Positions 40,859 through 47,647 of a stretch of DNA of 64,000 bases are shown here, one piece after another. Location of the stretch: positions 620,001-684,000 of the forward strand of contig NZ_CP133597.1 in NCBI RefSeq assembly GCF_031200575.1, given 5' to 3'. Position 1 is the first letter of the stretch, and the number at the start of each line of letters is the position of its first letter. Made by a program: the position numbers and the translations under genes. Source of the DNA: Ferroplasma sp. (GTDB lineage Archaea > Thermoplasmatota > Thermoplasmata > Thermoplasmatales > Thermoplasmataceae). The notes beneath the pieces are model-generated. The model saw only the letters and a list, made by a program, of their open reading frames with translations. It searched no databases and was not told the origin of the DNA.

Positions 40859-41332
40859 ATGGCAAACGAGAATAATGAAAATGAAACCACACCAGAAGAC
40901 GAAAAGATAGTAAGAAAGACAATATCAATAAAGGGCGTGAGCGCTGACCTGTATAAAAGGATACAGAAGGTATCAACTGAAACTGGAAAAACCATAGGCC
41001 AGGTTACAGATGAAGCATACAGGTCATTTATGGGCACTGTAGAGAACGCAAAGCGCCTGTCTGATGGATTTGTAAAGGGCATGAAAGAAGGCTCATCCCA
41101 GTATATAGAAAATATTAAAGAACTTGAGATAACCGGAGATGACCTGCAGGAAATTGGAAGAAAGATAATCTTCAAAAATATAGATACCCTGACATTCAAA
41201 AACATTGACAATGATATGTTTGACAGATATGTTAACGCTATAATAATGGTAAAGACCGTAAATATACCAAAATCTGTGAGCAAGGCAAGGGTGCTTTTAA
41301 AGGGAAGCTTTATAGACAGAATTGTCCAGTAA
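40859..41332 (+). CDS. Ribbon-helix-helix-like protein, unknown family
   Basis: A 157-residue protein with an acidic start (ANENNENETTPEDEK) then RKTISIKGVSADLYKRIQKVSTETGKTIGQVTDEAYRSFM (residues about 20-60), which has the strand-helix-turn-helix pattern of ribbon-helix-helix (CopG/Arc-like) DNA-binding domains. The remaining 95 residues form a mixed domain with repeated KNID segments that I do not recognise, perhaps a ligand or oligomer domain. A perfect inverted repeat surrounds its own TATA box, suggesting autoregulation. The stop is four bases from the convergent hypothetical gene. The DNA-binding call is inferred from pattern only. Confidence 0.6.
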   Translation: MANENNENETTPEDEKIVRKTISIKGVSADLYKRIQKVSTETGKTIGQVTDEAYRSFMGTVENAKRLSDGFVKGMKEGSSQYIENIKELEITGDDLQEIGRKIIFKNIDTLTFKNIDNDMFDRYVNAIIMVKTVNIPKSVSKARVLLKGSFIDRIVQ

Positions 41333-41336
41333 TGGA

Positions 41337-41882
41337 CTATAAATTCTTTTCCCTGTAGAAAAATGCACTTTCAACATCAGTAATAACGGTATCAAAACTA
41401 TTTTTTTCTTTTTCAATGTACCGGTATATTTCCATATGCAAGGGATTCCAGTATTTTTCAATGTAGTTATGGTTGACGGATTCTATAAATTTATTCTTAA
41501 CCTTGAAGATGCTATCGGTGATTTCAGAATTTACAGTTTCGGGGTTCTTCCAGTATCCTGTTAAATATGAATCTATAACCGTCTCAATTATGTCAGTAAT
41601 GTTCTTTTTGGTAATATCCTCGGCGTTCTGTGACTTTAAAGCATATTTCTCAGAGAGTCCATAATATTTCTGATAATCTATTTTTGGGAAATGCACGTTG
41701 AATTTCTCCTGTAGCATCTGTATTTCAATATAATCTTCTCTGTTATTAACAAAATTTTTCTCCGAGGTATATGTAACTATCAGGTTTTTGGGATTATTCT
41801 TCATAATGTACCTGATAAAGTCCTCATAGGAATACCCAGCAGTTTTTCCATGCAGTTTGCCTATGGTTGAAATTATATTCAT
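41337..41882 (-). CDS. Hypothetical protein, unrecognised family
   Basis: I do not recognise this 181-residue protein. The start (MNIISTIGKLHGKTAGYSYEDFIRYIMKNNPKNLIVTYTSEKNF) resembles an alpha/beta nucleotide- or metal-binding fold: strand, His-containing loop, helix, strand. The rest is strongly helical and charged, with many Lys/Glu/Asn and a basic end (FFYREKNL). No membrane segment. It converges with the RHH-like gene, four bases between stops. Higher A+T than the housekeeping genes nearby, but not extreme. A lineage-specific cytosolic protein is the most that can be said. Confidence 0.6.
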   Translation of the reverse strand: MNIISTIGKLHGKTAGYSYEDFIRYIMKNNPKNLIVTYTSEKNFVNNREDYIEIQMLQEKFNVHFPKIDYQKYYGLSEKYALKSQNAEDITKKNITDIIETVIDSYLTGYWKNPETVNSEITDSIFKVKNKFIESVNHNYIEKYWNPLHMEIYRYIEKEKNSFDTVITDVESAFFYREKNL

Positions 41883-42016
41883 AACATGTTATGCTATGCT
41901 AGCATTTAAAACTAATTTCGCATCTCCAGTATGGCTATTCCCGTAAACAGTTATAATTAACTCATAGGTATGAAAGATAACTATTTATACATTTAATCAT
42001 TGTTAAATTGATTAAA

Positions 42017-42574
42017 ATGTCAGTGTTAGGTGAAAAGACAGAAGCTGGTCTTAAAGATCTCTTGACAGCCAATGCAGAAGACCATATGAGACTGAATGCA
42101 GCAGCCAGTTATTTCGAGAAGATGGGGGACTACAAAACAGCAAAGGAATTAAAGGACAAGGCAAATGTTGAGCTTGGGCATTTCAATGCAATTTTCGCAA
42201 CCCTTGTAAAATACGAAGGCATAAACGGTCTGGTAAATGGCATGGCAAAGGAAGAAACAGAACAGCACGTTTCTGAGTACACAAACGTAGCCAATGCTGC
42301 AAAGGCAGAGGGCCACGATGACATAGAAGCAATGTTATGTGCATTTTCCGAGCAGGAGAAGGGCATAGCTGAAACTCTTAACAGGGTCGGTATGCAGAGA
42401 ATGATCTCGGATATGGCAAAGGAAGAAACAGAACAGCACGTTTCTGAGTACACAAACGTAGCCAATGCTGCAAAGGCAGAGGGCCACGATGACATAGAAG
42501 CAATGTTATGTGCATTTTCCGAGCAGGAGAAGGGCATAGCTGAAACTCTTAACAGTGCCAAAAAAGCTTTCTAA
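42017..42574 (+). CDS. Ferritin-like/rubrerythrin-like protein with exact internal duplication
   Basis: A 185-residue all-helical protein from the ATG at 42017 (an in-frame TTG nine bases earlier is not preferred). The first 70 residues form a helix pair with ANVELGHFNAIF (an E-x-x-H motif). A module starting MAKEETEQHVSEY and ending EQEKGIAETLN follows twice, separated by RVGMQRMISD. The E-x-x-H and E-x-x-E pattern fits ferritin-like four-helix bundles that bind di-iron, though the simple bundle would need only one copy. The two modules are identical at DNA level over 143 bp. A leaderless-type promoter (ACTATTTATACATTT) precedes it. Role in iron or oxidative stress handling is inferred. Confidence 0.7.
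   Translation: MSVLGEKTEAGLKDLLTANAEDHMRLNAAASYFEKMGDYKTAKELKDKANVELGHFNAIFATLVKYEGINGLVNGMAKEETEQHVSEYTNVANAAKAEGHDDIEAMLCAFSEQEKGIAETLNRVGMQRMISDMAKEETEQHVSEYTNVANAAKAEGHDDIEAMLCAFSEQEKGIAETLNSAKKAF
42242..42384 (+). repeat. 143-bp direct repeat, copy 1
   Basis: Runs from ATGGCAAAGGAAG to CTCTTAACAG and is base-for-base identical to 42413-42555. Offset between copies is 171 bases, a multiple of three, so the reading frame is kept. Confidence 0.97.
42413..42555 (+). repeat. 143-bp direct repeat, copy 2
   Basis: Exact copy of 42242-42384 inside the same gene, separated from it by 28 unrelated bases. The absence of even silent differences means a very recent duplication, ongoing conversion, or an assembly effect. 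Confidence 0.97.
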
Positions 42575-44882: not shown

Positions 44883-45650
44883 TTAGAGATTTCCAATATC
44901 CTTAACTGTTTCCCTGAACTCAAGGGGGTAAAATCTGATACCTTCTGGAGACATATAACTATCAAATTTCGCGTCATATGCTGCTTCCAGATTTTTTATA
45001 GTTACTGCAGCATCCCTTGTTCCGGAAGATATAATTTTGCCATCTTTCATAAGGATAATAGAATCAGAAATGTTATATGCGAGGTTTATGTCATGTAGGA
45101 CCAGCAGTATGCCCTTCCCTTCGCTTCTTAAATCTTTAAGTATCTTTATTAGCAGATTAATTTTATCAATATCAAGAAAAGACGATGGTTCATCCAGCAT
45201 GATATATTCTGGATTCTGATATATGACTGCAGAAATCATAACCATCCTTTTTTCTCCGCCGCTCAGGGTAGAATAATCACGGTCTATGAAGGTTTCAACA
45301 CCACACATTTCCATAGAATTATACAGATCATGATAATCATATTTTCTTGTGAAACCGTTTATTTCCATGATGTCCCTAACATTTAATCCCAATGGCTCTG
45401 GAAGTTCCTGCTGTACGTAACCTGTATACCTTGAAATTTCCAGGGATTTGAGACGTTTCAGGCACCTGCCATTTATTGCTATTTCTCCAGACTCTGGTTT
45501 TATCTCCCTGTTAAGGGCCAGCAGCGTTGACGTTTTTCCAGAACCATTCTTGCCGCATATTGTCAGGATCTCACCTGGATGTAGGGAAAAATTTATGGGT
45601 CCTATATTCAAATTTCCTCTCTTGAACGATATGTTCCTGAGTTCAAGCAT
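44883..45650 (-). CDS. Corrinoid/iron-type ABC importer ATPase (BtuD-like)
   Basis: ATP-binding subunit of a type II importer, 255 residues. Walker A is CGKNGSGKTSTLLAL, the Q-loop lies in VQQELPEP, the signature is LSGGEKRMVM, Walker B is YIMLDEPSSFLD and the switch histidine is in LVLHDINLAYN. The FepC/BtuD family handles vitamin B12, siderophores or heme. The operon's divergent neighbour CbiZ acts on cobinamides, so corrinoid uptake is favoured. Its start overlaps btuC by eight bases. Third gene of the operon. Confidence 0.88.
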   Translation of the reverse strand: MLELRNISFKRGNLNIGPINFSLHPGEILTICGKNGSGKTSTLLALNREIKPESGEIAINGRCLKRLKSLEISRYTGYVQQELPEPLGLNVRDIMEINGFTRKYDYHDLYNSMEMCGVETFIDRDYSTLSGGEKRMVMISAVIYQNPEYIMLDEPSSFLDIDKINLLIKILKDLRSEGKGILLVLHDINLAYNISDSIILMKDGKIISSGTRDAAVTIKNLEAAYDAKFDSYMSPEGIRFYPLEFRETVKDIGNL

Positions 45651-46674
45651 TGTAGTACCCCCTCTTAGAAATTCTTGTCATTAAAAGCATAAAAAACGGA
45701 ACTCCAATTATTCCAGTTATTATTCCAACGGGGATTACCTCACCGATTATTATCATATGTGCTATATCATTGGCAATGATTAAAAACGTCGCACCAAGGA
45801 TCGCTGAGGATGGTATTACATATTTATTTGAACCTCCATAGATCATCCTTGAAACATGCGGAAATATAAGCCCTACAAAGCCTATGAGTCCAGATATTGA
45901 TACACAGGCTGCAACAGAAACAGTGGTTAATCCCATGGAGACAAGTTTCGATTTCTCCACATTAATTCCGGCCGATCTGGCATATACATCTCCCAGCTGC
46001 AATGCGTTTAACTGCCTGTACATAAAAAATAGGGCTACTGAGGTAAAAATTACCAGGGGAGCCACAATATAATCATCAGCCCATGATATACCTGACAGGG
46101 AACCCAGTAACCAGAAAAACAGTGAATTTATGTATTTTGGCCTCGAATAAAGAAGAAGCGCAACAAATGATGAAACAAATAAGGATATTGCTATGCCTGA
46201 AAGTAGCAGTACCAGTGGAGGTGCCCTGCCATTTCTGATTGAAATGGCATAAACAAGCCCAACCACAATAATGGCAAATATAAAAGCAAGCAGGGGAAGT
46301 GTAAGTATCCCGAAAATAGTCAGCCCGAAAACAATAGCAAGCACCGCTCCAAGGGTTGCACCGCTGGATACCCCTGTAATGTATGGCTCAGAAATGGGGT
46401 TCCTGAATATGCTCTGTATCACTGCACCTCCTACCCCCAGCGATGCTCCAACAGCAGCGGCACCTATAGTTTCAGGCTCCCGTAGCTGGGTAACAATGAT
46501 ATAATCCGATAATTTAACATGTCCATAGATGCCAAACTGGGCAAGCACAGATTTAATTACATCCATAATAGGTATTTTTACTGGGCCGATATCAAGTGAG
46601 ATAATAAAAGATGCTAAAAGTGCAAGTATCGATACCATGAAATAAAAGTAAATTTTACCCTGAATTATTTTCAA
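45643..46674 (-). CDS. Corrinoid/iron-type ABC importer permease (BtuC/FecCD)
   Basis: Membrane permease of the FecCD family, 343 residues with about ten membrane segments, forming a homodimer. TQLREPETIGAAAVGASLGVGGAVIQSIFRNPISEPYITGVSSGATLGAV is the family signature region (R-x-P, G-x-x-Q, N-P-x-x-x-P), and FVGLIFPHVSRMIYGG near residue 260 contains the G-L-x-x-P-H-x-x-R loop that couples to the ATPase. It starts 20 bases inside the end of btuF and overlaps btuD, so all three are translated together. Corrinoid specificity is inferred from context. Confidence 0.9.
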   Translation of the reverse strand: MKIIQGKIYFYFMVSILALLASFIISLDIGPVKIPIMDVIKSVLAQFGIYGHVKLSDYIIVTQLREPETIGAAAVGASLGVGGAVIQSIFRNPISEPYITGVSSGATLGAVLAIVFGLTIFGILTLPLLAFIFAIIVVGLVYAISIRNGRAPPLVLLLSGIAISLFVSSFVALLLYSRPKYINSLFFWLLGSLSGISWADDYIVAPLVIFTSVALFFMYRQLNALQLGDVYARSAGINVEKSKLVSMGLTTVSVAACVSISGLIGFVGLIFPHVSRMIYGGSNKYVIPSSAILGATFLIIANDIAHMIIIGEVIPVGIITGIIGVPFFMLLMTRISKRGYYNA

Positions 46675-47647
46675 TGTTAACCACCGCCCCAGGCTCTGGA
46701 CTCGCCTTCAGGTTAAATGGAAATTGTGGTATTGTTACATTCTTGTTAAATGCACTTGAAATCATCCACTGGATTGCATAAATATCCCTGAAGTTCGGCT
46801 CTGCAAATATGTTATAGCTGAAAGCTTTATAGTACTTATTATGGGCAACTGCATAGGTTTTATTATAAGGTGTATACTTTAGATCTGTCTTATTAAATGA
46901 TGGGCCCAGTATCAGTGTGGAAATATTTTTACTTGCAATGATTTCATTTGATATCTGGTAAAAACTGGATCCATTTGCAATATTTATAAGGTGTGAATAC
47001 TTCATCATGGAGGATATAAATGTGTTGTTCCCTGCTGTATAGGTTTTACCATCGTAAATGCACATAGCATACATTGCCGTTTCATTTTTAACATTTACAT
47101 TTTTAAAGTCTGTCAGAGAAGTGGCGATCCAGTTATTCAGAAGTGTTGCATTATGTAAGTTCCCGGTTATTTCTCCCAGAAATGTATCCTGCTTTTCAAT
47201 AACGTTAAATGTTGTATTTGCACCTGATGACAGAAATATGTAATCTATTCCTGCATTCAGTAATTCATTGATCTGCGATTGTTTGTAATCCGAAAATGAT
47301 ATTACAGCCTGTGGACTTAAATTGAGTATCTCCTCTACATCCATGCTGGGATACGCTGACACTGCCGTTATATTCTCTGTGATATTGGAGCCAGGCCACA
47401 ATCCAGGGTATGCATATACTCCTTTAACATCTTTAATCGCGCCTATTGCGTAGAGGGTTGCTGTTACACTGGGGTCAAGCGACACAATTTTATTGAAATG
47501 CAGGCCACTTACATTTGAATTTACCGTCAGTTCCACGCCTTTTTTTACTGCAGGATGGTACCCGTAAACATCTGCAACATAAATGCCTGATGCGACCACT
47601 ATGATCGCAACGATTACAATTCCAAGTAATTTGATATGTTTATCCGT
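46655..47647 (-). CDS. Corrinoid/iron-type substrate-binding protein (BtuF-like), start codon apparently ACG
   Basis: Class III periplasmic-binding-type protein, membrane-anchored outside the cell. The binding domain runs from FNKIVSLDPSVTATLYAIGA; VEEILNLSPQAVISF and the closing helices match BtuF/FhuD. The first ATG/GTG in frame is a GTG at 47599, but it falls inside the signal/anchor helix. Reading upstream the frame continues through LLGIVIVAII to an ACG at 47647 (ACG GAT AAA CAT ATC AAA), with a stop a few codons farther. TTTATAAATA on the minus strand is about 25 bases before that ACG, where a leaderless transcript would begin. So the authentic start seems to be ACG, an ATG lost by one base, or a sequence error. 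Confidence 0.75.
   Translation of the reverse strand, partial: TDKHIKLLGIVIVAIIVVASGIYVADVYGYHPAVKKGVELTVNSNVSGLHFNKIVSLDPSVTATLYAIGAIKDVKGVYAYPGLWPGSNITENITAVSAYPSMDVEEILNLSPQAVISFSDYKQSQINELLNAGIDYIFLSSGANTTFNVIEKQDTFLGEITGNLHNATLLNNWIATSLTDFKNVNVKNETAMYAMCIYDGKTYTAGNNTFISSMMKYSHLINIANGSSFYQISNEIIASKNISTLILGPSFNKTDLKYTPYNKTYAVAHNKYYKAFSYNIFAEPNFRDIYAIQWMISSAFNKNVTIPQFPFNLKASPEPGAVVNIENNSG

Follow-up and report, generated by a model that had tools for sequence, protein, structure and literature searches.

A divergent rubrerythrin-like gene of Ferroplasma, an iron-loving archaeon of acid habitats, carries tandem copies of a helical hairpin that, judged from comparison of the genes across genomes, undergo concerted evolution within the gene and change in number between related archaea, both conclusions being real and well-supported. 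Taken as a whole, the best explanation, and a very probable one, is an old in-frame duplication of the hairpin that was later homogenised and resized by recombination in a divergent rubrerythrin-like protein.

The gene lies in the 64-kb stretch of DNA that was analysed (the window), which belongs to a genome assembled as one 1.86-Mb contig, where the gene occurs as a single copy. A sequence-only reading of the window had described an exact 143-bp in-frame duplication, and this stands: the two stretches are identical at 143 of 143 bases, with a period of 171 bp from start to start. Such a repeat is far beyond chance because, when the 64-kb window was scanned for 25-mers, none outside this pair was found twice. 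The repeated unit comprises 57 amino acids, namely the C-D helical hairpin and a 10-residue linker that shares its first two bases with the identical stretch of unit 1. The 28 bases between the copies, formerly taken as unrelated, are part of this conserved linker. The features of the locus are collected in Table 1.

Table 1. Features of the repeat gene and its upstream region (window coordinates).
Feature	Position	Strand	Basis
Stretch resembling an archaeal promoter, conserved, GAAAGATAACTATTTATAC, ~27-47 nt before the ATG	41970..41990	+	Upstream comparison of 11 genomes; archaeal promoter spacing
Rubrerythrin-like (sulerythrin-type) gene with repeated helix C-D hairpin, 185 aa	42017..42574	+	ORF, profile matches, alignment with archaeal rubrerythrins, model of one-unit homologue
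N-terminal helices A-B, not repeated; E52 and H55 (ExxH) equivalent to rubrerythrin E53/H56	42017..42211	+	Alignment, nucleotide tree
B-C loop YEGINGLVNG, positional equivalent of the later linker	42212..42241	+	Loop/linker comparison
Identical stretch in unit 1, forming the helix C-D hairpin MAKEETEQHV...IAETLN	42242..42384	+	Unit comparison
Linker RVGMQRMISD	42383..42412	+	Homologous to RAGM(K/Q/E)K(I/V)I-type linkers of other Ferroplasma and Acidiplasma
Identical stretch in unit 2, a 100% match to that of unit 1	42413..42555	+	Unit comparison
C-terminal tail SAKKAF and stop; beyond the homogenised stretch from 42556 on	42554..42574	+	ORF, relatives

The sequence-only reading had placed the gene start at TTG 42008. 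The ATG at 42017 is most likely the true start codon, to judge from the sequence, because all relatives have the MSVLG-type N-terminus in common and because a TATA-like box, TATTTATA, is conserved ~30 nt upstream. This distance agrees with a leaderless transcript, for which archaeal promoters follow a spacing rule between box and start. An 8-bp inverted repeat, TTTAATCA-N9-TGATTAAA, is located between the TATA-like box and the ATG (41992-42016); it was considered as an operator and rejected, being kept in the genome G006 and decaying in the other relatives. No terminator-like site was found.

As to the surroundings of the gene, the adjoining ORFs at 40859-41332 (+) and 41337-41882 (-) have no convincing Pfam or NCBIfam match. 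An operon for a FecCD-type ABC transporter of the iron/B12 type (ATPase, permease, and binding protein; 44883-47599, minus strand) lies ~2.3 kb downstream, past a NUDIX gene and a PEP carboxylase gene. In the genome G004, a ~1-kb insertion with a transposase-like ORF (L004:2090-3013) is found directly downstream of the two-unit gene and is absent from F. acidarmanus Fer1.

The gene product is best explained as a divergent, rubredoxin-less rubrerythrin of the sulerythrin-like type, with helices A-B-C-D. Curated profiles stay below their cut-offs: rubrerythrin PF02915 gives 12.5 bits against 22.8, NF045767 gives 20.3 against 200, and Ferritin PF00210 gives 15.8 against 24.5. Sub-threshold Pfam matches to Oxidored_FMN, spectrin, DUF892, and DUF7474 are inconsistent between members of the family and were dismissed as chance or compositional. 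A phmmer search of PDB with the single protein returned only TPR-like noise, and an alignment profile was needed; the profile built from ten homologues retrieved only rubrerythrin sequences from PDB, weakly (best E 0.017). In the window genome, a single PF02915 match was found, in a 329-aa protein (G000:C1:341320-341688; L048:1456-2445) that looks like an Rbr-VIT1-type fusion, its second half having been judged by eye.

When the protein is aligned with eleven archaeal rubrerythrins, an LGxKTExxL-type N-terminal motif proves to be common to all, and E52 and H55 of helix B, E80 (rubrerythrin E94), and E114 (rubrerythrin E127) are among the few invariant columns. The positions of rubrerythrin E20, E97, and H130 are occupied by N19, Q83, and I117, so that four of the seven metal ligands of the rubrerythrin set (E20, E53, H56, E94, E97, E127, H130, in D. 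vulgaris numbering) are kept. The duplicated module had been said to carry the E-x-x-H residues; in fact, the sole ExxH, E52-L-G-H55, lies in the unduplicated N-terminal half, and the module contains E79/E80/E82, Q83, H84, C108, E112, and E114. The second unit therefore adds no complete classical di-iron site. There is no C-terminal rubredoxin domain either: CxxC motifs are absent, and the protein ends after helix D or D'.

An AlphaFold2 model of a one-unit homologue, computed from an alignment of 18 sequences, has a pLDDT of 89 and adopts the four-helix ferritin-like fold. Its top PDB matches are all sulerythrins or rubrerythrins (probability 1.00), evidence that is not fully independent, as the input alignment contained rubrerythrins. 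Sulerythrin chains fit best (TM ~0.75, rmsd ~3), the domain-swapped rubrerythrin of P. furiosus (1nnq) fits with an rmsd of 3.6, and the classical rubrerythrin 1ryt fits only at an rmsd of ~16, so the model predicts for the chain the open form that domain-swapped erythrins have. The alignment reveals a short B-C loop, and the single-chain model matches swapped structures; the literature links such a loop to domain swapping, which sulerythrin and the P. furiosus rubrerythrin both show (PMC3317640). The model of the 185-aa two-unit protein, based on five sequences, is too poor to use (pLDDT 56).

The gene is found in few lineages. In the 117 genomes of the order that were searched, it is present in nine of the genus Ferroplasma (the window included), one of Acidiplasma, and two of a third genus of the same family, and a single marginal match lies outside these. 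Among 390 sampled genomes of the phylum, the only addition is one more marginal match, which falls on a true rubrerythrin. Because of this narrow spread in both searches, the gene can be regarded as a lineage-specific offshoot.

The sequence-only reading had expected copy number to vary, and related species indeed have one, two, or apparently three units. There is one unit in Fer1 (G009; NC_021592.1), which is a complete genome, and in G008 and G043, whose MAG genes could in principle be collapsed repeats. Two units occur in the window, G006, G003, G002, and G004, the last of which, a single contig of 1,826,943 bp, we take to be F. acidiphilum Y. Three units are assembled in G007 and G005, where the counts cross 10-N gaps and any true number from two upwards is conceivable. 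In Acidiplasma aeolicum VT, a contig break interrupts the array, which comprises two units or more. Two of the 6 contigs of G027 (L081 and L082, at the ends of C1 and C3) terminate inside the module with an exact overlap of 42 bp, which suggests that this genome, too, has a repeat array that the assembly did not resolve. The array is cut by scaffold gaps or contig ends in G005, G007, G042, and G027, as is expected of unresolved repeats. A comparison with single-module homologues, advised at the outset, is provided most directly by Fer1 and G004: Fer1 lacks exactly one 171-bp unit relative to G004, while the N-terminal part differs at 1 of 225 bases and the flanks are 97.5-99% identical, although the two are classed as separate species. 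On a nucleotide tree of the N-terminal part, the transition between one and more units requires at least three changes of state.

Within one genome, the units differ at 0-4 of 141 nucleotides, and between Ferroplasma species at 3-27; the corresponding dS is 0-0.08 within a genome versus ~0.1 to >1 between species (~1.1 for the window against G004 and 1.5 for the window against G002). Units that descend from an old duplication are thus more alike within a genome than between species. In the unit tree, they cluster by genome, except that the single unit of Fer1 stands beside unit 2 of the near-identical G004, and the data reject a single clade of all first units (AU p = 0.0005). Within G004 and within G003, the units differ in the last codons only, and the second units of these two genomes differ in one terminal residue (N to K). 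The homogenised stretches end at the diverged loop or linker on one side and at the C-terminal tail on the other; in Acidiplasma, the pair is half-homogenised, with the first 55 readable bases identical and 24 of the following 71 different. As read from the alignments, these boundaries are what is expected if unequal crossing-over or conversion acts only where the sequences are similar. Since dS is low within and high between genomes, the copies are identical owing to homogenisation.

The age of the duplication is indicated by the linker, which can be recognised in Acidiplasma VT as well as in seven Ferroplasma species and occurs only in repeated genes (RVGMQRMISD, RAGMKKIISD, RAGMQKVIEG, or RAGMEKVITD). 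A two-unit gene therefore probably existed before Ferroplasma and Acidiplasma separated. Hence, of the earlier proposal of a very recent event or conversion, conversion or recombination is supported as the source of unit identity, and a recent duplication is not. The one-unit genes of three lineages, one of them represented by a genome from a different genus, and the near identity of copies in every species could also be produced if a one-unit ancestor had had the same hairpin doubled separately, and recently, in several lineages. Fresh duplications, however, would copy the local B-C loop, whereas the linker is common to species and genera and, in the Ferroplasma genomes, differs at 0-13 (mostly 2-13) of 30 bases from the linkers of other species but at 14-19 of 30 from the B-C loop of its own gene; repeated independent doubling is accordingly improbable. 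Exact repeats are also a classic source of assembly errors, and an artefact in the window genome was the refutation that the sequence-only reading had envisaged. This is very unlikely, as the same 171-bp layout is assembled in five Ferroplasma genomes with sequences of their own, two of them (the window genome included) single-contig, and the linker and tail are unique sequence.

Least probable, to the point of being barely credible, is that selection acting on DNA, RNA, or protein, and not recombination, keeps the units identical. The module protein is highly conserved, with a dN of 0 among the first units of the window, G006, G003, and G004 (up to 0.1 in the N-terminal part), but selection leaves unexplained why synonymous sites differ so widely between species and hardly at all between the units of one genome, and Rfam gave no family match. 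We favour an old duplication of the C-D hairpin, in frame and probably preceding the split of the two genera, after which the near-identical 171-bp units would recombine by unequal crossing-over and/or gene conversion, indistinguishable here. Recombination of this kind would keep the units of one genome identical and would add or remove whole units with the frame intact. The old linker, the homogeneity within genomes, the change in number by 171 bp, and the strong conservation of the module are documented by the compared genes, and homologous recombination between units would be the process behind them.

The same sequence history is compatible with different roles for the repeat. It may be neutral, merely tolerated by a modular protein, and we give this appreciable weight while leaning against it: one-unit forms survive in natural species such as Fer1, and no phenotype is known, but the two-unit layout is kept in most Ferroplasma, the linker amino acids and the frame are conserved, and the dN of the module is near zero. 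As to structure, the A-B and C-D hairpins may exchange between chains as in sulerythrin. With their pairing probably taking place between chains, any additional C-D hairpin would be left without an A-B partner of its own; each could pack onto a hairpin of an adjacent chain, or pair with another extra C-D hairpin within or between molecules, enlarging the assembly. The number of units would then set assembly size rather than add complete di-iron sites, and, given the resemblance of the structure model to the swapped sulerythrin chain, extra hairpins would probably extend a swapped assembly. A bolder and rather unlikely extension is that hairpin number is a reversible, recombination-driven setting of assembly size. 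One-unit proteins would form closed swapped dimers. Extra identical hairpins, paired as C-D against C'-D' and each bearing the ligands E80/E114, would build further four-helix bundles whose metal sites, located between chains, are rich in carboxylates. The resulting filaments or enlarged assemblies would serve as a buffer for iron or peroxide where iron is extremely abundant, and unit number would vary among subpopulations.

These closely related archaea, with one, two, and apparently three hairpin copies, constitute a compact natural experiment, and the otherwise near-identical Fer1 and G004 pair permits a direct test of how repeat number affects assembly and metal handling in a ferritin-like protein. 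The case also documents intragenic concerted evolution in archaea. Hairpin arrays break or confuse short-read assemblies, and their true lengths are probably under-reported.

Concerted evolution is known for tandem repeats in other protein-coding genes, where units are likewise similar within a genome, differ between species, and vary in number; the present case differs in that the repeated unit forms a helical hairpin in a ferritin-like archaeal protein. Our literature search found no comparable ferritin-like archaeal case and no description of this repeat. The accessible part of a survey of rubrerythrins from acidophilic archaea distinguishes five architectures, including small domains without di-iron motifs, and makes no mention of an internal repeat (PMC8773360). 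Sulerythrin of Sulfolobus tokodaii (1j30, 7o91) and other short-loop rubrerythrins without rubredoxin, e.g., ferriperoxin, are the closest structural counterparts, sharing the single ferritin-like domain, the short B-C loop, and, in the single-chain model, the open or swapped chain shape; the Ferroplasma protein differs from them in its low identity (18-20%), in the replacement of ligands E20/E97/H130, and in the tandem C-D hairpin units. With the classical rubrerythrins (PF02915/NF045767), it has in common the LGxKTExxL-type motif, the ExxH of helix B, the E94/E127 equivalents, and the EG(F/H)DDI turn, but it falls below the family cut-offs, has no rubredoxin, has lost three ligands, and is poorly fitted by the non-swapped 1ryt structure.
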